DNA of 11,153 nt. It comes from Actinomycetes bacterium (GTDB lineage Bacteria; Actinomycetota; Acidimicrobiia; Acidimicrobiales; RAAP-2). The stretch lies in NCBI GenBank assembly GCA_021777285.1, contig JAJYDR010000076.1:1-11153 (forward strand), in the 5' to 3' direction. The notes beneath the pieces were generated by a model. That model ran no database searches and was not told the DNA's origin. It worked only from the letters and a program-made list of their open reading frames with translations. Below are positions 1 to 11,153 of this stretch, in pieces (the first letter of the stretch is position 1; every line of letters starts with the position of its first letter). A program made the position numbers and the translations under genes.

Positions 1-630
1 CGTCGAGGTGTCTCGTCAGTGGCCCTCGATCTACCGGGGTTCGGATCCTCACCACCCCCAACGGTCGCGGGCGGTGCGCGTCTCTACGCGTCACTGGTCA
101 CGCCAGTACTGGCGGCGCTCGGCCGCCCGGTCGTGCTCGTCGGACACTCCTTCGGTGGCCGCATCGCCACGGTGATCGCGGCCAACCACCCGGAATTGGT
201 GACGAGCGTGATCGTGACCGGGACGCCGCTACTGCACAGCCCGGTCGTCGTGCGCTCGCCGCGCCCGTACCGCTTGATCCGGTGGCTCCACCAGCGAGGT
301 TGGCTTTCGGACGAACGCCTCGAGGCGGCACGACACAAGTACGGTTCGACGGACTACCGGGCGGCGTCAGGGATTGTCCGTGACGTGCTCGTGGCGACCG
401 TGGCGGAGGGGTACGAGGAAGAACTCGCGCGTCTCGAGGTGCCCGTAGTCATGTTGTGGGGCGAGCTCGATACTGTCGTGCCGGTCGCGGTCGCCGAGCG
501 CGCGAACGAACTGCTCCATGCCCCCGACGTCGACGCGCGCCGGCTCCGTGTTCTTAAAGACGTCGGACATTTCGTGCCCAATGAAGCCGCCTCGACACTG
601 GCCGATCTCATCGTTGAGGTGATGTCGTGA
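1..630 (+). CDS. alpha/beta hydrolase, 5'-truncated by the window edge
   Basis: This is the C-terminal part of a cytoplasmic alpha/beta-hydrolase-fold enzyme. The frame stays open to base 1, and the first residues run into a strand-turn motif (ALDLPGFG) that lies inside this fold, so the GTG at 19 is internal and the true start is upstream of the window. The catalytic triad is visible: the nucleophile elbow GHSFGG has its Ser codon at 148-150, the Asp in WGELD is at 469-471, and the His in DVGHF is at 568-570. A helical lid of about 70 residues lies between the elbow and the Asp strand. The stop overlaps the GTG start of the Mur ligase gene (GTGA), so the two are probably translationally coupled. 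The substrate is unknown. The operon context suggests an ester or amide linked to cell-wall precursor metabolism, but that is inference. Family assignment is secure; function is not. Confidence 0.9.
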   Translation, partial: RRGVSSVALDLPGFGSSPPPTVAGGARLYASLVTPVLAALGRPVVLVGHSFGGRIATVIAANHPELVTSVIVTGTPLLHSPVVVRSPRPYRLIRWLHQRGWLSDERLEAARHKYGSTDYRAASGIVRDVLVATVAEGYEEELARLEVPVVMLWGELDTVVPVAVAERANELLHAPDVDARRLRVLKDVGHFVPNEAASTLADLIVEVMS

Positions 631-2189
631 CCATCGTCATCGTGGTACTCGCCTCCCTCGCGGTGGCCGGGGCGTACGTGGCCCAACTCGTCCGCTGGTT
701 GCGTGTTCTCCAGCGTGAGCACTACGTCGCCGCCTCACTCCCTCGGTTTCTGGGGCGGTGGACCTCGCCCCAGGTTGGGTCGGCGTCCACGCCGGCGCGT
801 CGCAACCTTCGCCGGCCGCTCACGCTCAGCCACGTGATGTTCATCGGCCTGATGCTCGGACTGCTGTTGGCGAGTCCCGTGGTGTTGGTGCTCGACGCGA
901 TCCTCTACGGCTGGCTGTGTCCGACCGGGCTCACCCTACGGGGTCGCACCAGTGCCCTGCGCTGGACACGTCGGGCCATAACCATCGCGGTCACGGCGAG
1001 CGTCATGGCGGTCGCGATTGCGCTGCTCGGCGCGCTGACACCGCAACCATGGTTCGGTGCGGTCGTCGTCGTCTGGGCGGTGCCGATGTTGCTCGATCTC
1101 GCGACGCGACTGTTGTCGCCTTACGAGGACCGGCGCGCGCGCTCGTACGTGGAGCGGGCGCGTGAGCGCCTGGTGCGCGTGGCGCCAACGGTCGTCGGGA
1201 TCACCGGCTCCTACGGCAAGACGTCAACGAAGAACCATGTGGCGCAATTAATGGGCGGCTCGGTCGTAGCCTCGCCGCGGAGCTTCAACAACCGTGCGGG
1301 GCTTTCGCGGGCGATCAACGAGAACCTGGGCGACGGGACCTCGGTCTTCATCGCCGAGATGGGCACCTTCGGGCCCGGCGAGATCCGCGCCATGTGCGAG
1401 TGGTGCCCGCCGACAGTCGCCGTCGTTACCGCGATCGGGCCCGTTCACCTGGAACGCATGAAGTCGCTCGACGTGATCGACGGCGCCAAGTTCGAGATCA
1501 CCGAGCGCGCGTCGGTCGTCATCCTCAATGTCGACGACGAGCGCCTGCGGCGCTGGGTCGATCGCCTCGAGGCGTCGGGCAAGCGAGTCGTGCGGGCCGG
1601 ATCCACGTCTACGGACGCCCAGGTTCGCGTGGCTCGCGATGGTTCGCAGTGGCGCATCGAGGTGGAGGGTGTCGAGCCACTCCACCATCCGACCATCGTG
1701 GGCGTCCAGCCGAGCAACCTCGCCTGCGCGATTGCGACCGCGATCGAGCTCGGTACCGACCCGGGCGTGGTGCTGGGCCGGCTCAACGCCGTCACATCGG
1801 TCGCCAACCGGGCCAACGTCGTCGCGGCGCCATCGGGCGTCGTGGTGATAGACGACACGTTCAACGCCAACCCGGCGAGTGCGGCGGCTGCCCTGGAGGT
1901 GCTGGTCGGACTGGATGCCGCGGGTCGTCGCGTGCTCGTGACTCCCGGGATGGTCGAGCTCGGTCGCGATCAGTACGGACAGAACCTCGCGTTGGCGCGC
2001 CGCGCCAACGCACTTGGTGTTGAGCTCGTGGTGGTGGGGCGGACCAACGCCCTCGCGCTGTCGGTCGGGTATGACCGGCCGCCCCGGCGTTTCGACCGAC
2101 GTGAGCAGGCCGTGGCGTGGGTTCGTGAGTCCCTGGTCGCCGGCGACGCGGTGCTGTATCTCAACGACTTGCCCGACAACTACCCTTGA
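627..2189 (+). CDS. membrane-anchored MurF-like Mur ligase (D-Ala-D-Ala-adding type)
   Basis: The 520-residue protein starts at GTG 627, overlapping the previous stop. Residues 1-160 hold about four hydrophobic segments (about 1-20, 68-95, 117-136 and 142-160), where classical MurF has its soluble UDP-MurNAc-peptide-binding domain. From residue 187 the Mur ligase core begins. It has a P-loop GITGSYGKTSTKNH (191-204), a probable metal ligand Glu244 in IAEMG, an IGPVHLE motif with His274, and AKFEI with Lys288 at the position of the usually carbamylated lysine. The MurF-type C-terminal signatures DDTFNANPAS (409-418) and PGMVELG (440-446) follow. The protein ends in NDLPDNYP, an ending I recall from this MurF-like subfamily. 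The known family reaction joins a D-Ala-D-X dipeptide to a UDP-MurNAc-peptide using ATP. The membrane module suggests a lipid-linked or membrane-localised acceptor, which is inference. The next gene is a Ddl-like ligase, a natural supplier of the dipeptide. This is probably not the only MurF in the cell. Confidence 0.87.
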   Translation: MTIVIVVLASLAVAGAYVAQLVRWLRVLQREHYVAASLPRFLGRWTSPQVGSASTPARRNLRRPLTLSHVMFIGLMLGLLLASPVVLVLDAILYGWLCPTGLTLRGRTSALRWTRRAITIAVTASVMAVAIALLGALTPQPWFGAVVVVWAVPMLLDLATRLLSPYEDRRARSYVERARERLVRVAPTVVGITGSYGKTSTKNHVAQLMGGSVVASPRSFNNRAGLSRAINENLGDGTSVFIAEMGTFGPGEIRAMCEWCPPTVAVVTAIGPVHLERMKSLDVIDGAKFEITERASVVILNVDDERLRRWVDRLEASGKRVVRAGSTSTDAQVRVARDGSQWRIEVEGVEPLHHPTIVGVQPSNLACAIATAIELGTDPGVVLGRLNAVTSVANRANVVAAPSGVVVIDDTFNANPASAAAALEVLVGLDAAGRRVLVTPGMVELGRDQYGQNLALARRANALGVELVVVGRTNALALSVGYDRPPRRFDRREQAVAWVRESLVAGDAVLYLNDLPDNYP

Positions 2190-2215
2190 TAGTCGGTCTA
2201 GGAACGAGGTGAGCG

Positions 2216-3322
2216 GTGGCGAGTGGTGTGATCTACGGTGGGCCGTCGCCCGAGCACGACGTGTCGATCCTGACGGGCCTGCAGGCTCTGCGTGAGTTAC
2301 GTCGTACGGATACCAACGCGGTGGGGATCTACTGGACTAAGACTGGTGACTTCTACCAGGTGACCGCCGACGTCGAGGCCGAGGCGTTCGTCGACGGCGT
2401 GCCGCGTGGATCGTCGTCGCTCTCGCTTCGCCTGGGTGATGGTGGCGGCTTCTTCAGTGCGGGCGGGCGCCTCGGCAAAGACCGTCGACTCGACGTGGAT
2501 GTGGTCGTGCTGGCGACGCACGGTGGTCCTGGGGAGGACGGGACGCTCCAGGCGGCCCTCGACCTCGCGGGCCTGGCATACACGGGGCCAACCGTGGCCG
2601 GCGCCGCACTGGGGATGGACAAGTGGTCCTTTGGCGCCGTGGCTGCGGCGGCCGGGTTACCCACGCTGCCCCGGGTCTTACTGAGTGACGCGAGCACGTC
2701 GTTGCCCTTTGACGGGCCCTATATTCTGAAGCCGCGTTTTGGCGGGTCGTCGATCGGTATCGATGTCGTCGACGACCTGGAGACAGCTCGGGCTCGACTG
2801 CGCACGAACAGCCACTTCGTCCTTGGCTGTGTGGTCGAACCGTTCCGCGCCGACCTGTACGACGTCCAGGTCGCCGTGCGCACCTATCCCACGCTTACGC
2901 TGTCGGCTATCGAACGACCCCTGCGACGCGCCGTCGCTTCGGAGATCCTCGACTACCGCGACAAGTACGTGGGCGGCGATGGGATGGTGTCCGCGCCCCG
3001 AGAGATCCCCGCGGTCCTCGCCCCGGGCCAGGCCGAGCGGATCATCGAGGTCGCTCGGGCCGTCGCCACGGTGGCGTCGGTCCGCGGCGTGGCTCGGATC
3101 GACTTCCTCGCGAATGCCGACGAAGTCTTCCTCAACGAAATCAACACCATCCCGGGTTCACTCGCGAAGCACCTCTTCGTTGAGCCGGTCGTGCCGTTCG
3201 GCCAGCTGCTGGCTGACCTGGTGGCCGAGGCCCGCGAGCGACCGGCCCACCGCTACAGCTCGGCGGGCGCCGACGGACTCGTCCTACGCAGCGCCGGTTC
3301 GATCGCCGCCAAATTGGCGTAG
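2216..3322 (+). CDS. ddl: D-alanine--D-alanine ligase-like ATP-grasp enzyme
   Basis: The 368-residue protein starts at GTG 2216, just after a GAGGTGA ribosome-binding stretch (2206-2212) and 26 nt after the Mur ligase stop. It has the Ddl motif order: GGPSPEHDVS (8-17), HGGPGEDGTLQ (102-112), a DK pair (135-136), KPRFGGSSIG (172-181), the omega-loop DYRDKY (246-251), and RIDF (294-297) followed by LNEINTIPG (306-314). Probable Mg ligands are Asp296, Glu308 and Asn310. The family joins two D-Ala molecules with ATP hydrolysis in the cytoplasm and feeds MurF. Two positions depart from textbook Ddl. The ADLYDVQVAV segment (212-221) has Asp216 where a Glu is usual. The loop after NTIPG reads SLAKHLF instead of a Thr-x-x-Ser type that binds the second D-Ala carboxylate. 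Acceptor specificity may therefore differ (D-Ala-D-X). Family is very sure; the exact dipeptide is not. The symbol is used in the family sense only. Confidence 0.88.
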   Translation: MASGVIYGGPSPEHDVSILTGLQALRELRRTDTNAVGIYWTKTGDFYQVTADVEAEAFVDGVPRGSSSLSLRLGDGGGFFSAGGRLGKDRRLDVDVVVLATHGGPGEDGTLQAALDLAGLAYTGPTVAGAALGMDKWSFGAVAAAAGLPTLPRVLLSDASTSLPFDGPYILKPRFGGSSIGIDVVDDLETARARLRTNSHFVLGCVVEPFRADLYDVQVAVRTYPTLTLSAIERPLRRAVASEILDYRDKYVGGDGMVSAPREIPAVLAPGQAERIIEVARAVATVASVRGVARIDFLANADEVFLNEINTIPGSLAKHLFVEPVVPFGQLLADLVAEARERPAHRYSSAGADGLVLRSAGSIAAKLA

Positions 3323-4903
3323 TCGCGGCACCCGTGCCAGGGCGTCGGTGAGCACGTCGCTGAACGGGTCGAGCAGTCGACCACGCTCGATCGCCCAGTA
3401 GGCCCGTTCGACGTCGCCGACAGCGAGAGACACGTCGTGCAGGGCCAGCGCAGCCCATTCACCGTCGCGCTGGAGTCGCGCCAGATGGCCTTCGACCGTG
3501 AACCACTCGAATCCGTGACGCACACCGACGAGTGGTTCACCGTGCACCAGGCTGAGGGCTTGGATCAAGAGGGGTGCCGCGTCGCCCGTAGAGCGCCGCC
3601 GGGCGTCGCGGATGAGGTCGTGGAACTGCCCCACGTCACTGGCGACACCGTGCACGCGGTAGAGGCCGTCGGCCGACACCGGCTGGAGCCGTGGGCCGTC
3701 GGCGTCGGTACCGAGGCTGCGTCGGACGCTCGTGGCGGTGTTGGCGAGGGTGCGCAGCGAGGCGTCGACGTCGGCGTGCACCAACACGCGCGATCGGAGC
3801 CGGTCGCCGCTCACCGCTTCGCCGCGATGCATGGTGATGTAGGCGACCATTTCTATGCAGCGCCGACGTAGTGACGGTGTGAACGGTTCGAGGAGTCCGT
3901 GGATTAGGGGGTCGGGTCGCAGCAGTTCCACGAAGATGTCGGTCGCGTCCCGCGGGACCTCGCCTTCGGTGAACCCGGTGTAGGAAACCGTCGCCTCGTG
4001 GATCTCCGCTCGTACGTCGCGGGAGCGATCGATGGTCACGCTGCACGCTTTCAGTGCGTCGTCGAGTTCATCGCTGTCGCCGAGGTAGACGACGAGATGG
4101 CGTCGGACGGACCGGATGGCGAGTGCGCGCAGGAAGTCGTAGTCGACGTCGGTGGCGACGATGCGTCCGCCGTCGTGCAGCCCCACCATGTTCTCGACGA
4201 GCTCGCCTCGCGTCCAGTGGGGTGGGATTCGAAGTCTGCCGCCCTCGCGCGCGAAGGACACCAGCGGCTCGGTGTCCTCATCGTCGAGAACGCACGCGAC
4301 GACCGGTTCGTCGTCGAGCAGGGGCGCGGCGTAGGCGAAGTCACGCGCCACTCGGACCACGCCGTCTCGACGCGTGCCGATGGCGCGTCGCAGGTGGCTG
4401 ACGAGCGAAGGGTCGGCTTCTCGCAGCTGGGCGATCAGGTCATCGATCTCGTCGTCAGGGGTCTGTTGGTAGCGAGCCTGGTCGCGCCGTCGCTTGGCCG
4501 CGAGGGCCAGGGGCAGCGCGCCGAGCACGTTCGTCGCGCGGGGGCGTTGTCGTGGGCTGTGGTGTTCGACCGTGGTCGTGACGACGCCGTGAGCGGGAGC
4601 GCTCGGGTGGACCGATGCCGACGCCGACGGCCCGAGCGCGAGTATCGCGACGATGAGTCCGGCGAGCCAGGCCGTTCCGCCGAGCCCGAGAACGACGCCA
4701 TGGCGCAGGCGACCGACGTCGCGAACGAGTTGGATGACGAAGGCGATCCAGAAGATCGCGAGCGCAAGGAGCAACGCCCGAATCAACGTGACGTCGGTCC
4801 GGTGAGCCGCGACGGTCCACCTCGTCACCACGACGTAGGGGGTGAGCACGAAGTAGACGCCGAGAGCGATTCCGTGCAGTGGCCCCGAGGCGAATCGTCT
4901 CAC
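3284..4903 (-). CDS. membrane-anchored BTAD/winged-helix transcriptional regulator
   Basis: I place the start at GTG 4903-4901, which overlaps the TGA stop of the upstream gene (GTGA) and gives 539 residues. The same frame stays open back to 5542, but that part is a shadow of the upstream gene. Hydrophobic segments at about 8-26, 38-60 and 68-92 form an N-terminal membrane module. A second short hydrophobic stretch (125-136) is followed by a basic AAKRRR. Residues about 183-330 form an unrecognised alpha/beta domain. Residues about 340-420 look like an OmpR/SARP-type winged helix, with helices around RRRCIEMVAYITMHRGEAVSGDRL and a closing wing GLYRV (413-417). Residues about 421-530 look like a helical bacterial transcriptional activator (BTAD) domain. 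Related actinobacterial proteins, as I recall them, often carry a LysM domain between the membrane part and the cytosolic part; none is visible here. It probably senses the envelope and regulates transcription from the membrane (inference). Its 3' end overlaps the Ddl-like gene by 39 bp. Confidence 0.82.
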   Translation of the reverse strand: MRRFASGPLHGIALGVYFVLTPYVVVTRWTVAAHRTDVTLIRALLLALAIFWIAFVIQLVRDVGRLRHGVVLGLGGTAWLAGLIVAILALGPSASASVHPSAPAHGVVTTTVEHHSPRQRPRATNVLGALPLALAAKRRRDQARYQQTPDDEIDDLIAQLREADPSLVSHLRRAIGTRRDGVVRVARDFAYAAPLLDDEPVVACVLDDEDTEPLVSFAREGGRLRIPPHWTRGELVENMVGLHDGGRIVATDVDYDFLRALAIRSVRRHLVVYLGDSDELDDALKACSVTIDRSRDVRAEIHEATVSYTGFTEGEVPRDATDIFVELLRPDPLIHGLLEPFTPSLRRRCIEMVAYITMHRGEAVSGDRLRSRVLVHADVDASLRTLANTATSVRRSLGTDADGPRLQPVSADGLYRVHGVASDVGQFHDLIRDARRRSTGDAAPLLIQALSLVHGEPLVGVRHGFEWFTVEGHLARLQRDGEWAALALHDVSLAVGDVERAYWAIERGRLLDPFSDVLTDALARVPRLRQFGGDRTGAA

Positions 4904-5532
4904 GGCGTGGGAACGATCTGCCAGTGAACGGGGCCGACAGACTGGCTGGTCAGCAGGAGTCGGCAGGTCGTCAATGTGTCGATGCTGATCGACCCGCCCA
5001 CCACAACCGTCGAGCCCGAGCAAGTCAGCTGTTCGAGCATCGGTGCGCTCGACTGGACGGTCCAGGTTCCTGGGCCTTGCATCGGGACCTCCTCGGTGGA
5101 TCCGGCCGAGGGGAGACTTCCGACGAGCGCGCCGCTCGCGGCGCCGCCGATCAGCGATGAGGCGGGTGACGGCTCGATCGCGGCGGTCGTCGTTAATGAT
5201 GGCGAGCTTGATCTCGCGGTCGCGGTGGCGGTGCGAGTGCTCGGAGTCGTCGTGATCGTCGTCGGTACTGGTTCGGTCGGCGTCGTCGATCGGCTCGTCG
5301 CGGTTGTCGTGGTCGTCGGTTTCAATCGGACGACGCGCACTTCGTCTCTCGACGCGACCCTCGATGTTCGCGCGACGACTTTGGGCGGACTCGAGACCGT
5401 GAAGACGAGGACCAGGAGCAGGATCGGACTCGACCACTGCACCAGGTGCGCCGCTCGCAGCGACGTCACGCGAAGCATCATGAATCCACGGTATCGACGA
5501 GGGCGACCGGTCGCCAAACTGGGTGAGGTCAT
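4900..5532 (-). CDS. membrane-anchored Thr/Ser-rich extracytoplasmic protein, unknown function
   Basis: This 210-residue protein (ATG 5532) has an Arg-rich N-terminus, one hydrophobic segment (about 34-48) and then a low-complexity Thr/Ser/Pro linker (about 71-125) typical of exported actinobacterial proteins. It ends in a small compact domain (about 151-210) beginning GPGTWTVQ, with two cysteines (171 and 190) that could form a disulfide. I read it as an N-in anchor or uncleaved signal holding a small domain outside the membrane. ATG codons at 5481 and 5478 are possible later starts; 5532 is preferred because it lies 6 nt after the preceding stop. The stop overlaps the GTG of the BTAD regulator, so the two proteins are likely made in step and may interact. 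The domain sits where LysM-type sensor domains are found in related fused regulators, but I see no LysM signature. It is the likely sensor half of the pair, by context only. Confidence 0.8.
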   Translation of the reverse strand: MTSPSLATGRPRRYRGFMMLRVTSLRAAHLVQWSSPILLLVLVFTVSSPPKVVARTSRVASRDEVRVVRLKPTTTTTATSRSTTPTEPVPTTITTTPSTRTATATARSSSPSLTTTAAIEPSPASSLIGGAASGALVGSLPSAGSTEEVPMQGPGTWTVQSSAPMLEQLTCSGSTVVVGGSISIDTLTTCRLLLTSQSVGPVHWQIVPTP

Positions 5533-5538
5533 GGCCGC

Positions 5539-6234
5539 TCACACGAGGAACCGGTAGGCGAAGCGCTGAAGTTCGTTCTGCAGTGATTGCGGTGCGCAGT
5601 GGTCACTGCCACCCAGTTCTCGCCACGACCGACCCTCGTAGATCCGGGCGTACGCGAGTCGTGCCAACCGGTCGTGCGGTCCACCGCGATAGGCGGCGAG
5701 TCGGGTCTCGAGCGGCGAGTTGGCGGGGGCGGCGACGTCGTCGAGGCAGTTGACCGTCTGCATTGCGACCTTCTCCTTCAGGAGCCAGCGGCGAACCCGC
5801 GCGCGGAGCGCTGAGAGGATGTCGGGGGCCGCGTATGGGCGCGACTGACCAGCCCACTGCGCGAGGAGTTCGCTCGCCAGCGAAATCGCGACGCCGACGG
5901 TCTCACTCGGCTCGGTCACGACCCCGGCGCCGAAACGGAGCTGACGACAGACGTTCACGATCCCCGGCAGCAGCGTCTGGAGTAGTGCACGGTGGACATC
6001 GGGGTCTGCGGCGTCCTCGAGCATGATCTGAACGAGTTGGGCGCGCTCGCTCACGGTGCGTCCGCCACGTACTTCGAGGGCGTCGACGAGGTCACCGAGA
6101 TCCTCGATCCCGTCTAATGGCGCATCGACGTGGCGCTCGCGAAGCCGATACAGGGCCGTCGTGGAGGGACCTCGATGGGCCAGGTGGCGCCAGTCGGTGC
6201 GGAGTTGATTGAGGACGTCGTAGGAATGTGTCAT
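5539..6234 (-). CDS. sigma-like helix-turn-helix protein, conserved hypothetical
   Basis: The chosen start is ATG 6234, giving 231 residues. The frame stays open to an ATG at 6348, but the extra 38 residues (rich in Cys and Arg) would be read through the TCATGAC repeats of the divergent promoter region and look non-coding. No strong ribosome-binding site is visible. Residues about 67-100 (LVQIMLEDAADPDVHRALL then LLPGIVNVCRQLRFG) and 110-155 form helices that I recall from an actinobacterial family of sigma-like proteins. The C-terminus (about 188-231) carries LARLAYARIYEGRSWRELGG and a second helix ending QNELQRFAYRFL, shaped like sigma region 4. It has no visible region 2, so it is probably a DNA-binding regulator or partner rather than a full sigma factor (inference). 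It is the first gene of the operon with the exported protein and the BTAD regulator; the gap to the next gene is 6 nt. Confidence 0.72.
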   Translation of the reverse strand: MTHSYDVLNQLRTDWRHLAHRGPSTTALYRLRERHVDAPLDGIEDLGDLVDALEVRGGRTVSERAQLVQIMLEDAADPDVHRALLQTLLPGIVNVCRQLRFGAGVVTEPSETVGVAISLASELLAQWAGQSRPYAAPDILSALRARVRRWLLKEKVAMQTVNCLDDVAAPANSPLETRLAAYRGGPHDRLARLAYARIYEGRSWRELGGSDHCAPQSLQNELQRFAYRFLV

Positions 6235-6302
6235 GTGACGAAGTCCACTGGGACGTGCGCGTCGGTTCGCGCACTGACGGGTAACTCGAAACGCACCAGT
6301 TT

Positions 6303-6321
6303 TCATGACACGGATCATGAC
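6303..6321. promoter_or_regulatory. candidate operator: two TCATGAC copies, 12 nt apart
   Basis: TCATGAC occurs at 6303-6309 and again at 6315-6321. The core TCATGA is itself palindromic, so the unit TCATGA-CACGGA-TCATGA is both a direct and an inverted repeat. It lies in the 134-bp spacer between the divergent genes at 6234 (-) and 6369 (+), about 50-65 nt upstream of the predicted + strand start site. On the minus strand it follows a TTGTCC that could be a weak -35 box. A dimeric regulator could bind here and affect both directions. The repeat is seen directly; the role is inference. Confidence 0.4.
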
Positions 6322-6356
6322 GTGGACAACGCATAGCGTCGCGCACATACACGACG

Positions 6357-6368: not shown

Positions 6369-6707
6369 ATGGACATCGAGGCCTTTTATGAACAGAACGA
6401 GACGCGCCGTGAGAGTGCGGAGTTCGAGTTCGGCGACGAATGGACCGACGAGGCGGGTAATACCTACCGCCTGTCCTGGATCGAAGCCACGGGCGAGCTC
6501 TATCTGATGATCGGCCCAGAGGCGACGGTGAGTGAGGACATCTTCGGTGACTTCCTCGTCGCTGACGAACCCGTGAGCGGATTGACGGTCGTGGTCATCG
6601 GGACGGTCGGTTCACTCGGTGCGGTGGAGGATCAACTCGAAGGCTGGGAAGACGCGATGCTTGAGGAGAATTCACTCGAGTGGCTCTACGAGCGATTTAA
6701 CGACTGA
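6369..6707 (+). CDS. small very acidic conserved hypothetical protein
   Basis: The 112-residue protein starts at ATG 6369, a start supported by the -10 hexamer placed just before it. It is strikingly acidic: I count 29 Asp/Glu against 4 Arg and no Lys. There are no membrane segments, cysteines or signal peptide, so it should be a soluble cytoplasmic protein. The pattern (DEWTDEAGNTYRLSWIEATGELYL near 23-46, a variable middle with a strand-like LTVVVIGTV, and a C-terminal helix ending SLEWLYERF) suggests a small alpha/beta fold. I recall similar short proteins starting MDIEAFYE in other actinobacteria, with no assigned function. It is divergent from the sigma-like gene and convergent with the lipoprotein gene. 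It is real by composition, promoter and family resemblance; its role is unknown. Confidence 0.78.
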   Translation: MDIEAFYEQNETRRESAEFEFGDEWTDEAGNTYRLSWIEATGELYLMIGPEATVSEDIFGDFLVADEPVSGLTVVVIGTVGSLGAVEDQLEGWEDAMLEENSLEWLYERFND

Positions 6708-7760: not shown

Positions 7761-10298
7761 CTACAGCCGTAACGACAGTCGAATTGGCAGATACGCCGAC
7801 GACTGGCCGATGTCGACGTGGTAGGTACCGGGCACCACGGTGAACGTTCCGTGGCGGAAGATCTCGAAACTTCGCCGGTCCGCCGAGAGGACGACGGTCG
7901 TTTGTGCGCCGGCTTTCAGGAGCACGCGGGCGAACGCGCGTAACTGCTCGGGGGGTTCACCGGCACGAGCGGGGTATGAGACGTAGAGCTGGACGACGTC
8001 CGCACCGGTTCGGTGACCTGTATTGGCGACCTCTACCGAGACCCTCACCCCCGTGGCGGTGCGCCGAAGGCGGGCCCGTCGAAGGGCGAAACTCGTGTAG
8101 GAGAGGCCGAATCCGAAGGGGAAGAGCGGACGCACGTGGTTGGCTTGGTACCAGCGGTAACCCAGGTCGAGGCTGGACGCGAACTCGACGGTTCCGTCAA
8201 CGCCCGGGAAGAAGCGCGGCGATGAATTCGCCATCGCGTTCATTGACGTGGGAAACGTCAAAGGAAGTCGACCCGAAGGATTGACGGCACCGGTCAGGAC
8301 CGGTGCAATCGCGGCCCCATCGACCTGACCGGGATACCACGCTTCAAGGACCGCGGCGACCTGTCCGAGCCACGGCATCGCCACGGCACCGCCCGTCTCA
8401 AGGACGACGATGGTGTGTCGGTTCGCCGCGGCGACGGCCTCAATGAGCGAATTCTGATCGCCCGGTAGATTCAAGTTGGGTCGGTCGGCCCCCTCAGAGG
8501 TCGGCGCGCTCGCCACCACGATCACGTACTGGGCGTGACGGGCGATCCGGACGGCCTTCGCGATCGCCGGGGTGGCGTCAACGAGGCCAAAGGTCGGTGC
8601 CGGGTGGTCGCGGATGTCGAACCAGGTGACGCGAAGCGTGTAGTCGCGACCCGATCGAAGTTTGATCGCGGTGGTGATCAGGTCAGGCGAGTGAAGTCCC
8701 CGTGACGCGATGAGCAGTCGGCCGTTTACGTATACCCAGGTGTCGCCGAACTGTCGAAACGCGACGTCGTAGATTCCTGTTCGTTTGGCCCGGAACTTCA
8801 CCTGTGAGGACGTCCAGTTGTCGCCGGTGCCCGGCGTCGTGGCCGTGGCGACGCTCGGCGTGACGTTGCCACCACGATCGATTCCGATGTCCGCTTTGCC
8901 CGGCTCGCCCACCTGGCTGAATCGGGTGATGAGCCTGAGTGGTGTGCCTGATTCGATGACGATGTCACGGCGAGACTTGACGTTGGGTATGTAAATGTCA
9001 CCGGGCGCGTAGGCGAGACGGACACCACTGCCCAGGGCCTGGCGCAAGGCGTTGAACGGGGTGGTCACCGACGTGGCCACGACGGCCGCGCTGCCCCCGC
9101 CGACGCTCATCGGCACTTGGCTCGCCGCGAGGCCGATGACGGCGATCGATCGGACAGACACAGGAAGCGGAAGTATCCGATGGCGATTCTGCAGCAGGAC
9201 AACGCTGCTTTCCGCGGCACGGAGGGCGATTGAGACGTGAGCGGGTGTTGAGACGTTAGCGCTCAGGGAGAGGCGCAGCGGATGTGCGACGAGGCCGAGG
9301 GCGAACATGGGGGTGAGGATCGAGTGAACGGCGCGGTCGAGGATGCCGATAGGCAACCGGTGGTGGATGACAGCGCTGATGAGGCCACCGGTTGAGACTG
9401 GTTTGAGCATGGCGATCCCGGCGCGAAGGGCCGCGACCGGGTCTTCGACCGCGCCGAGATCCGAACGAACGAAACCAGTGAACCCCCAAGACCGTAGCGT
9501 TCGGTAGACGTAGGGACTCGAACAGGTATTGACGCCGTTTAATGACCCGTAGGAGCACATCAGCGACGCCACGTGGCCCTGTTGCACCGCGGCTTCGAAG
9601 GGGGCGTTGTAGATCTCGGCCAATGCTCGCGCCGACACGCGTTGATTGAGCCGGGCGCGTGCGGTCTCCTGGGTGTACGCGGTGAAGTGTTTCGCGTCGG
9701 CAATCTCGCCGAGTGATTGGATTCCGCGGATCGCGGCCACGCCAAGCACAGCGGAGAGGTACGGATCCTCACCGTAGGTCTCAAAGATCCGACCGCTCAG
9801 CGCGATGCGCGCCAGGTTGAGATTCGGCGCCTGTACCCCGTCGATCCCCTTCGCGCGAGCTTCACTGGCCAGAACGCCGGCGACGGCCCGGGCGAGTGAT
9901 GGATCAAAAGTGGCGCCGATTCCAATCGCCGCGGGCAGCTGCGTCACGAACTGCAGACCGTTGGCGACACCGTTTGGACCATCGGTCAATGTGAGTGGCG
10001 GGATGCAGAGGTTCGGAATCCCGACGTTGGCGTTCTCGAGCGGGGGATAGGTGGAGAGTGCGACGAAGTTGACCTTCTGGGCGAGCGTCATATGCGCGAC
10101 GACTTCGCTGGCGAGAACCGACGCTGGCGCGCTGTGCTGTACCGATTGACGAACCCACGGACATCGGGCGGCGGGACGGATGACCCCGACGGCCACCGGT
10201 AACCGGGGGCTCGCTCCAGCGCCCGACGAGCGCGCGGTGAACACGAAGGTGGCCGAAACGAGGACCAGTGCCACCACGGACCAGAGACGTCGCGTCAC
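7761..10298 (-). CDS. secreted GH3 glycosidase with inserted PA14-like domain (beta-glucosidase/xylosidase type)
   Basis: The start is GTG 10298, supported by GGGAG 8 nt upstream, giving 845 residues; a TTG at 10313 is the alternative. An N-terminal signal (core about 5-21, then a small-residue region SSGAGAS) indicates export. The GH3 N-domain includes LTDGPNG (about 104-110), GRIFETYGEDP (169-179), KHFTAYTQE (203-211) and the nucleophile Asp280 in VRSDLGA. The GH3 C-domain begins near 360 with SSVVLLQN. It is interrupted at about 465-575 by a PA14-like beta module (DNWTSSQVKFRA, then DTWVYVNGRLL). It resumes with VIVVASAP and SEGADRPNL, where Glu602 is the probable acid/base, and ends with a fibronectin-III-like domain (about 745-840, ADVVQLYVSYP). 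The family releases terminal beta-linked glucose, xylose or similar from oligosaccharides; PA14 insertions in GH3 are thought to tune substrate length. It is monocistronic or first in its unit. The exact substrate cannot be read from sequence. Confidence 0.92.
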   Translation of the reverse strand: MTRRLWSVVALVLVSATFVFTARSSGAGASPRLPVAVGVIRPAARCPWVRQSVQHSAPASVLASEVVAHMTLAQKVNFVALSTYPPLENANVGIPNLCIPPLTLTDGPNGVANGLQFVTQLPAAIGIGATFDPSLARAVAGVLASEARAKGIDGVQAPNLNLARIALSGRIFETYGEDPYLSAVLGVAAIRGIQSLGEIADAKHFTAYTQETARARLNQRVSARALAEIYNAPFEAAVQQGHVASLMCSYGSLNGVNTCSSPYVYRTLRSWGFTGFVRSDLGAVEDPVAALRAGIAMLKPVSTGGLISAVIHHRLPIGILDRAVHSILTPMFALGLVAHPLRLSLSANVSTPAHVSIALRAAESSVVLLQNRHRILPLPVSVRSIAVIGLAASQVPMSVGGGSAAVVATSVTTPFNALRQALGSGVRLAYAPGDIYIPNVKSRRDIVIESGTPLRLITRFSQVGEPGKADIGIDRGGNVTPSVATATTPGTGDNWTSSQVKFRAKRTGIYDVAFRQFGDTWVYVNGRLLIASRGLHSPDLITTAIKLRSGRDYTLRVTWFDIRDHPAPTFGLVDATPAIAKAVRIARHAQYVIVVASAPTSEGADRPNLNLPGDQNSLIEAVAAANRHTIVVLETGGAVAMPWLGQVAAVLEAWYPGQVDGAAIAPVLTGAVNPSGRLPLTFPTSMNAMANSSPRFFPGVDGTVEFASSLDLGYRWYQANHVRPLFPFGFGLSYTSFALRRARLRRTATGVRVSVEVANTGHRTGADVVQLYVSYPARAGEPPEQLRAFARVLLKAGAQTTVVLSADRRSFEIFRHGTFTVVPGTYHVDIGQSSAYLPIRLSLRL

Positions 10299-10306
10299 GG
10301 GGTCAG

Positions 10307-10311
10307 CTCCC
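10307..10311 (-). promoter_or_regulatory. ribosome-binding site GGGAG that fixes the GH3 start
   Basis: On the minus strand GGGAG is followed by 8 nt and then GTG at 10298. This spacing is good for the GTG start and cannot serve the TTG at 10313, which overlaps and precedes it. This is why the shorter 845-residue protein is preferred. Confidence 0.6.
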
Positions 10312-10342
10312 AATCCCGAACATCAACGTCTCCAGTCGTTTT

Positions 10343-10429
10343 GCTGCCCCGACGAGTTGGGAGCCGCCCCGAATTGTAAGGGGTGATGGCCATCGGGTCA
10401 GCTCGCTATGCACCGAGGCGCCGCCCCGA
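10343..10429. repeat. three copies of GCYGCCCCGA in the divergent promoter region
   Basis: GCTGCCCCGA (10343-10352), GCCGCCCCGA (10363-10372) and GCCGCCCCGA (10420-10429) lie in the same orientation. The second abuts the minus-strand -10 and covers the predicted GH3 transcription start. The third abuts the plus-strand -10 of the phosphatase gene. The first two are 20 bp apart, about two helical turns. The motif is GC-rich, so chance is less unlikely than for the other repeat, but its placement against both -10 boxes suggests a shared regulator. Confidence 0.4.
10373..10401 (-). promoter_or_regulatory. promoter of the GH3 gene: CTGACC-17 nt-TACAAT
   Basis: On the minus strand TACAAT (10378-10373), one base from the -10 consensus, lies 17 nt after CTGACC (10401-10396), which matches four of six -35 consensus bases. 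Transcription would start near 10366, giving a 5' leader of about 68 nt with its own ribosome-binding site. Repeats described separately overlap both boxes. Confidence 0.55.
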
Positions 10430-10435
10430 TACGGT
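10430..10435 (+). promoter_or_regulatory. -10 hexamer TACGGT of a likely leaderless promoter
   Basis: TACGGT fits TANNNT and leaves 7 nt before ATG 10443, so the transcript would begin at or next to the start codon. No Shine-Dalgarno sequence is present in the 7 nt. A possible but poor -35 (TATGCA, 10407-10412) lies 17 nt upstream. Confidence 0.5.
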
Positions 10436-10442
10436 GGATTCG

Positions 10443-11153
10443 ATGAGTGACCTGTTCCCGACACTGCGAGACTGCGCCGATGAGATCGGTCGATCGATCG
10501 AGGCTCACCGGGGCCGCGGTTACTCGGGTCTTCGAGAGTCTCAGTACCACCTCGACGTGGTCGCTGACGAGGTCGCACGACGAGTACTCGGTGCGGCGGG
10601 CTGGCGAGTCGTGAGCGAGGAGTCCGGTGTCACGGGATCGGGGCCGTTGACGGTGGTCGTTGACCCTATCGACGGTTCGACGAATTGTGATCACGGCGTT
10701 CCATTTTTCGCGACGAGCCTCGCGGTGCTGGCGGAAGGTGAGCTCGTAGCGGGCTACGTGGTCAACCACGCCACCGGTACCACCTACCAAGCCGAGCGGG
10801 GTGCGGGAGCCACCCGCGACGGGGTGACGATTGCGACGAGCGGACGTACCCGTCTCCGCGACGCGATCGTGGCGTTCTCGGGACTGCCGTCCCACCACGC
10901 GGGATGGGCTCAGTTCCGAGCCCTCGGCGCCGCGAGCCTCGAAATCTGCCTGGTCGCGGACGGTTCACTCGACGCGTATGGCGTTGCCCAGCAGTCGACC
11001 CTCAATCCCTGGGACTACCTAGCCGGGCTCTTGATTGCCCGTGAGGCAGGCGCCGCCGACACCGACTACCGCGGTGAGCAACTCGTGACTGATGGTGCGG
11101 TAGTTCGGCGTCCGCTGATCGCGGCCACAACGTCACTGCTAGGGGAGCTCGTA
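10443..11153 (+). CDS. inositol monophosphatase family phosphatase, 3'-truncated by the window edge
   Basis: The frame is open from ATG 10443 through the end of the window (237 codons), so only the last part is missing compared with the usual 250-280 residues. The family signatures are present. EE at 59-60 follows VVS, DPIDGSTN (74-81) carries metal ligands Asp74 and Asp77, and NPWDYLAG (188-195) holds the third-metal/catalytic Asp191. GAASLEICLVADGSLDAYG (162-180) matches the dimer and substrate-site region. The family removes phosphate from small sugar or inositol phosphates, 3'-phosphoadenosine 5'-phosphate, fructose 1,6-bisphosphate or histidinol phosphate with Mg2+. Which one applies here is not clear from motifs. 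It is a soluble cytoplasmic enzyme. It is divergent from the GH3 gene and shares a repeat-rich promoter region with it. The start is supported by the -10 hexamer placed 7 nt upstream. Confidence 0.9.
   Translation, partial: MSDLFPTLRDCADEIGRSIEAHRGRGYSGLRESQYHLDVVADEVARRVLGAAGWRVVSEESGVTGSGPLTVVVDPIDGSTNCDHGVPFFATSLAVLAEGELVAGYVVNHATGTTYQAERGAGATRDGVTIATSGRTRLRDAIVAFSGLPSHHAGWAQFRALGAASLEICLVADGSLDAYGVAQQSTLNPWDYLAGLLIAREAGAADTDYRGEQLVTDGAVVRRPLIAATTSLLGELV

Follow-up and report, generated by a model that had tools for sequence, protein, structure and literature searches.

In the textbook order of the soluble steps of cell-wall precursor synthesis, MurC, MurD, MurE and MurF act in that sequence ahead of MraY. 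Among the relatives of these ligases, MurT of the MurT/GatD lipid II isoglutaminyl synthase is reported to act on lipid-linked precursors (PMC6085368). Here we analyze a stretch of 11,153 nucleotides (the window, by which we mean the whole stretch) from an actinomycete of the Acidimicrobiales (GenBank assembly GCA_021777285.1, contig JAJYDR010000076.1). The window begins with three linked genes, encoding an alpha/beta hydrolase, a Mur ligase with a membrane domain, and a Ddl-type ligase, a grouping that resembles the van glycopeptide-resistance operons in having a Ddl-like ligase beside a MurF-like gene. The membrane Mur ligases form a clade that is sister to MurF and share its motifs and fold, and the bacteria that carry the membrane form most likely have no other enzyme for adding D-Ala-D-Ala. 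We propose, with a probability of about 0.6, that this form alone serves as their MurF and that it acts on lipid I- or lipid II-tripeptide after MraY.

Results

Open reading frames (ORFs) of the window were read and their proteins searched with the Pfam and NCBIfam profiles, the absence of a Pfam domain being judged at E ≤ 0.001. The membrane Mur ligase is encoded at positions 627..2189 (+ strand; 520 aa, GTG start) and contains the Mur_ligase_M (PF08245, E = 9.4e-24) and Mur_ligase_C (PF02875, E = 1.6e-8) domains, both over their cut-offs. The Mur ligase N-domain PF01225 is absent from it at the above threshold, and none was found at E ≤ 0.01 in two distant members of the membrane form; the two controls, a MurF and a MurE, both had this domain. 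Based on hydropathy and an AlphaFold2 model (mean pLDDT 93), residues 2-185 are helices, several of them hydrophobic, and the Mur fold starts at residue 188. The membrane domain (residues 1-185, positions 627..1181, defined by hydropathy, AlphaFold2 and alignments) replaces the UDP-MurNAc-binding domain, in agreement with the original prediction made from the window alone. Two of its loops are basic, loop 21-66 having 9 Arg/Lys and 1 acidic residue and loop 98-114 having 3 Arg/Lys and no acidic residue, so by the positive-inside rule both loops would be placed in the cytosol. Five residues of the membrane domain, R23, Q29, E31, Y33 and W45, do not vary in either of our alignments (74 and 29 rows).

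The ligase contains an ATP-binding loop, T-G-S-Y-G-K-T-S-T (residues 193-201, positions 1203..1229), and the sequence D-D-T-F-N-A-N-P (residues 409-416, positions 1851..1874), which we take to be a MurF-type motif. The pattern D-x-[FY]-N-A-N-P matched the membrane ligase in 32 of 45 genomes that carry the membrane form and found no match in the other 13, with one extra match elsewhere in 3 of the 32; the link of this motif to MurF is borne out by these matches to the membrane ligase across genomes. A Foldseek search with the ligase model gave MurF crystal structures for all of the top ten matches. In a quick tree of 86 rows with SH-aLRT support, the membrane forms made up one clade (support 100) that joined MurF (support 99), separate from MurC, MurD and MurE. 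This homology gives good support to MurF chemistry in the cytosolic domains.

We also examined whether genomes with the membrane form contain a canonical MurF, this being defined as a match over the TIGR01143 cut-off. The 45 genomes consisted of 30 nearer ones, which contain the loci, and 15 more distant ones; they are mostly draft metagenome bins whose completeness is not stated, and the whole-genome search was conducted within the Actinomycetota. No MurF over the cut-off was found in any of the 45 (0/30 nearer, 0/15 distant), and the top murF match in each of the 30 nearer genomes was the membrane ligase itself. MurD was found over its own cut-off in 41 of the same 45 genomes, demonstrating that profile searches of this kind work in them. 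Possible canonical enzymes of the dcw cluster among the next-best murF matches were ruled out, because the four dcw ligases tested proved to be MurE (438-448 bits) and no MurF was seen in the dcw clusters. The original prediction expected a canonical murF and ddl in the same genomes, and this did not hold: canonical MurF was missing from all 45, and 41 of 45 lacked any other clear Ddl.

The organization of the dcw clusters is consistent with the loss of a soluble MurF. By stop-codon order, murE is directly followed by mraY with no MurF labelled in 43 of the 43 dcw clusters holding both genes. The stop-to-stop distance from murE to mraY is 1010-1079 bases in 41 clusters, and 1261 and 2176 bases in the other two. 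At locus L187 the mraY frame begins 7 bases past the murE stop and continues, and at L287 the longest mraY frame starts 100 bases past the murE stop, leaving no space for murF at either locus. Among the control clusters, murF lies between murE and mraY in 20 of 20, these controls having been picked among the strongest canonical-MurF genomes of the phylum sample rather than drawn at random. Other features of these clusters vary. L171-L190 and L252-L261, which are of the Acidimicrobiales type, have no murD labelled in the dcw cluster, and their MurD matches over the cut-off are located elsewhere; most clusters among L276-L290 retain murD near mraY. A MurE-like ligase outside the FtsI-MurE-MraY order is present at L180 (genome G010), L251 (G020) and L277 (G110), and G020 and G110 also have the MurE of the dcw cluster.

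The two types of MurF exclude each other in wider samples. In a phylum sample of 198 genomes, canonical MurF was present in 0 of 16 genomes with the membrane form as compared to 176 of 182 others; 15 of the 16 are clear, and G088 was included on a C-terminal fragment where its contig stops. Contig ends also affect the 15 distant genomes, where they cut off the Ddl of G100 and most of the G088 ligase. In a class sample of 148 genomes, 71 genomes had the membrane form (all matching A2 with E values of 1.1e-106 or lower), 72 had canonical MurF, none had both, and 5 had neither. The assemblies of 31 of these 71 membrane-form genomes are 0.6-1.1 Mb in size. Absent from the class sample, which is a draw, were eleven second-group genomes and G169; these may belong to other classes. 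Similar ligases may exist in Alphaproteobacteria as well.

The three genes are conserved as a group. We retained 80 loci from a scan of named genome contigs, with titles that are mostly Acidimicrobiaceae, Acidimicrobiales, actinobacteria or Actinomycetes but include five Acidobacteria and one Saccharibacteria, and added 14 stretches from further genomes to give 94 loci. Hydrolase, ligase and Ddl genes are all present on the same strand at 81 of these loci. The remaining 13 loci, seven without Ddl and six without hydrolase, have at most 725 bases on that side before the contig ends; L013, for instance, has 515 bases past the ligase with no Ddl match in them. This grouping is far beyond chance, and both the linkage proposed from the window and its conservation in relatives are confirmed. 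The nearest relatives, L001 and L004, have a ligase 93% identical to that of the window, and the trio is still kept in relatives whose ligases are just 34-44% identical to it, with the exception of L152, which has no Ddl in its stretch. Twenty additional class-mates gave a similar result, the trio being present in 19, with no Ddl found alongside in L352. In the window the ligase start overlaps the hydrolase stop by 4 bp. Among the 81 complete loci the overlap is 4 bases in 41 and 1 base in 7, many of the other values being inflated by the longest-frame rule. The gap between ligase and Ddl is 0-100 bases in 67 of the 81 and over 100 bases in nine, mostly second-group loci, with a maximum of 1227 (L269). 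Searches of plasmids and phages matched 120 and 18 records, respectively; among the matches listed, none had one place covering 80% of the query, and the three plasmid regions examined contained no such trio. An Agrobacterium pusense plasmid (L326, 2907-7143) carries a 3168-base gene for a long protein of the Mur ligase family beside type I secretion genes and an alpha/beta hydrolase on the opposite strand, an arrangement that differs from the trio.

The Ddl of the window (2216..3322, + strand; 368 aa, GTG start) starts 26 nt past the ligase and contains the Dala_Dala_lig_N and Dala_Dala_lig_C domains. TIGR01205 is its best NCBIfam family by score, although its 179 bits fall below the cut-off of 245.65; this cut-off was exceeded by a Ddl in none of the 30 nearer genomes and in 10 of the 15 more distant ones. 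A K-Y pair, which we take to indicate specificity for D-Ala rather than D-lactate, is invariant in 85 of the 85 rows with letters at these positions. Among the 45 membrane-form genomes, 41 have no clear Ddl besides that of the trio (29/30 nearer, 12/15 distant). Further Ddl matches in the nearer genomes have E values of about 5e-14 or weaker, mostly in long frames, as would be expected of other ATP-grasp enzymes, and G030 has a second match at 6.2e-21. G169 has two Ddl matches of similar strength, with the trio at L264 and the second away from it at G169:C2:123747-124661. G076 has a partial second Ddl at a contig edge, and in G100, where no Ddl was found, the contig stops about 200 bases past the ligase match. 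As none of the relatives searched has a further murF over the cut-off and most lack a second clear ddl, the trio is probably the housekeeping set, a conclusion that rests on relatives, the nearest being those with the 93% identical ligase.

The hydrolase gene is represented in the window by its 3' part (1..630, + strand; 209 aa present, open at the 5' window edge; Abhydrolase_1, E = 1.2e-18). The full-length hydrolase of relative L001 (7219-7977; 252 aa) has no hydrophobic N-terminus or secretion signal by eye, so the hydrolase is probably cytosolic. Its presumed catalytic residues are highly conserved (Ser in 88/88 rows, His in 87/87, Asp in 95% of 88), and S159, D161, Y162, R170 and E179 are each kept in 88/88. 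Many NCBIfam hydrolase families matched the protein, none over its cut-off. These features point to a probable cytosolic serine hydrolase.

Downstream of the trio are a 752-aa ORF (3284-5542, − strand) that overlaps the 3' end of the Ddl gene, a 269-aa ORF (5539-6348, − strand) and a 112-aa ORF (6369-6707, + strand). All three were matched in many relatives, and none of them matched an NCBIfam family. The window also encodes a glycosidase-like protein (7761-10313, − strand), which matched arabinopyranosidase, glucosidase and xylosidase NCBIfam models, all below cut-off, and an inositol-phosphatase-like protein (10383-11153, + strand); each of these two genes was found again near the trio in some relatives.

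Discussion

Our analysis suggests a pathway in which MraY would transfer the tripeptide and the membrane ligase would then add D-Ala-D-Ala to undecaprenyl-PP-MurNAc-tripeptide (lipid I) or to lipid II-tripeptide, such that the pentapeptide would be finished at the membrane ahead of flipping. Lipid I- or lipid II-tripeptide is the most likely acceptor, given that the ligase has lost the uridine-binding domain and has instead a membrane domain whose basic loop contains invariant residues; by analogy with MurT, which works on lipid II, such an acceptor after MraY is probable. The D-Ala-D-Ala ends of the pentapeptide are presumably still needed, since FtsI retains its transpeptidase domain in the one dcw cluster tested. 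The hydrolase is probably co-translated with the ligase and could perhaps be an editing enzyme for the same peptide. We consider the chances slightly better than even that the pathway as a whole is re-ordered in around half of a single actinobacterial class, and probably in other classes too, with MraY taking the tripeptide, the membrane MurF completing the pentapeptide on lipid I/II, and soluble UDP-MurNAc-pentapeptide never made.

Several points weigh against a lipid acceptor and a sole MurF. Loss of the UDP-binding domain is no proof of a lipid acceptor, as the remaining domains could take UDP-MurNAc-tripeptide near MraY. With the membrane domain alone, Foldseek matched no solved fold at E ≤ 0.001, which leaves a lipid-binding site there hypothetical; T114 and R116 are invariant in one alignment but not in the other, making that result alignment-dependent. 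The window ligase scores 179.8 bits against the TIGR01143 cut-off of 288.6, with MurF still the best-scoring NCBIfam family, and its ligase activity is predicted from sequence. Five of the 148 class-sample genomes show neither type of MurF, and the counts, drawn mostly from draft metagenome bins, are of genomes and not of independent events. A membrane ligase that is the sole MurF but works on soluble UDP-MurNAc-tripeptide, the helices only docking it beside MraY and the order of steps remaining unchanged, would likewise account for the missing canonical MurF and for the motifs of MurF chemistry. It would also fit the gene order of the cluster, where mraY comes after murE, and the one MraY tested, whose Pfam family and signature are the usual ones. 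We regard this arrangement as unlikely, though it deserves serious consideration, because the uridine-binding N-domain of Mur ligases was not found, because the five membrane-domain residues invariant in both alignments are more than a bare anchor needs, and because MurT provides a precedent for a Mur relative acting on lipid-linked precursors.

The original prediction placed the acceptor at the membrane within a separate pathway. The first part remains probable from the domain swap, but the second is not supported, no canonical MurF over the cut-off having been found in relatives. An extra, specialized D-Ala-D-X pathway beside housekeeping MurF and Ddl could draw on the second Ddl matches of G169 (similar strength), G076 (partial, contig edge) and G030 (weaker). 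We reject it as very improbable on the missing canonical MurF, with none over the cut-off in the 45 genomes, the 43 dcw clusters or the 71 class-sample genomes, and on the single clear Ddl in 29 of 30 nearer and 12 of 15 distant relatives. Alternatively, the trio might serve another polymer or a small peptide, with an unrelated and unrecognized enzyme performing the MurF step. The membrane form is a family without known activity, and on the A. pusense plasmid a protein of the Mur ligase family and a hydrolase are encoded beside secretion genes, both of which observations would be compatible with such a role. The only clear Ddl, the sister relationship to MurF, and the exclusion of canonical MurF, which extends to the 31 assemblies of 0.6-1.1 Mb, indicate a wall pathway, making this alternative improbable as well.

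A large and little-studied environmental bacterial group, including assemblies of about 1 Mb that are streamlined or incomplete, appears to be without a soluble MurF and to have the membrane form instead. If that form is their MurF, the 'MurF' annotations in these genomes would take a different meaning, and the conserved hydrolase would become a candidate wall enzyme. Should the acceptor be a lipid, a core pathway targeted by antibiotics would have no fixed order, and inhibitors of MurF designed against the UDP pocket would lack their binding site in these bacteria. Public annotation names the protein MurF or 'Mur ligase family protein', so its existence is already on record; we found no account of its architecture or of what it replaces. 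Among the matches listed in a literature search, which included PMC6085368, PMC8871954 and PMC8698665 and had most subscription papers outside its scope, neither a membrane MurF nor murF-less bacteria of this group were described.

Comparison with described systems sets the trio apart from each of them. A van-type resistance ligase was rejected because, among the 25 families listed, the van-type and D-Ala-D-Ser/D-Lac models gave at most 109.5 bits as compared to 179 for the Ddl model, all van models being far below their cut-offs. Van-like genes are reported in 0 of 216 assemblies of Acidimicrobiales and 0 of 214 of candidatus Actinomarinales (PMC8698665). MurT works with a glutaminase partner to amidate D-Glu, whereas the membrane form carries MurF motifs and has the hydrolase and Ddl as neighbours (no search aimed at GatD was made); a MurT model was not among the Pfam and NCBIfam matches of the window ligase at E ≤ 0.001. 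The Ddl of the trio shares both Pfam domains and the best NCBIfam family with described Ddl (TIGR01205), and differs from it in the sub-cut-off score in the window and in the link to a membrane ligase. Compared to MurF itself (TIGR01143; structures 3zl8, 4cvm and 1gg4), the membrane form lies outside the dcw cluster, is linked to Ddl and a hydrolase, scores below the family cut-off, and has, where no UDP-MurNAc-binding domain was found, about 185 residues that are mostly membrane helices.

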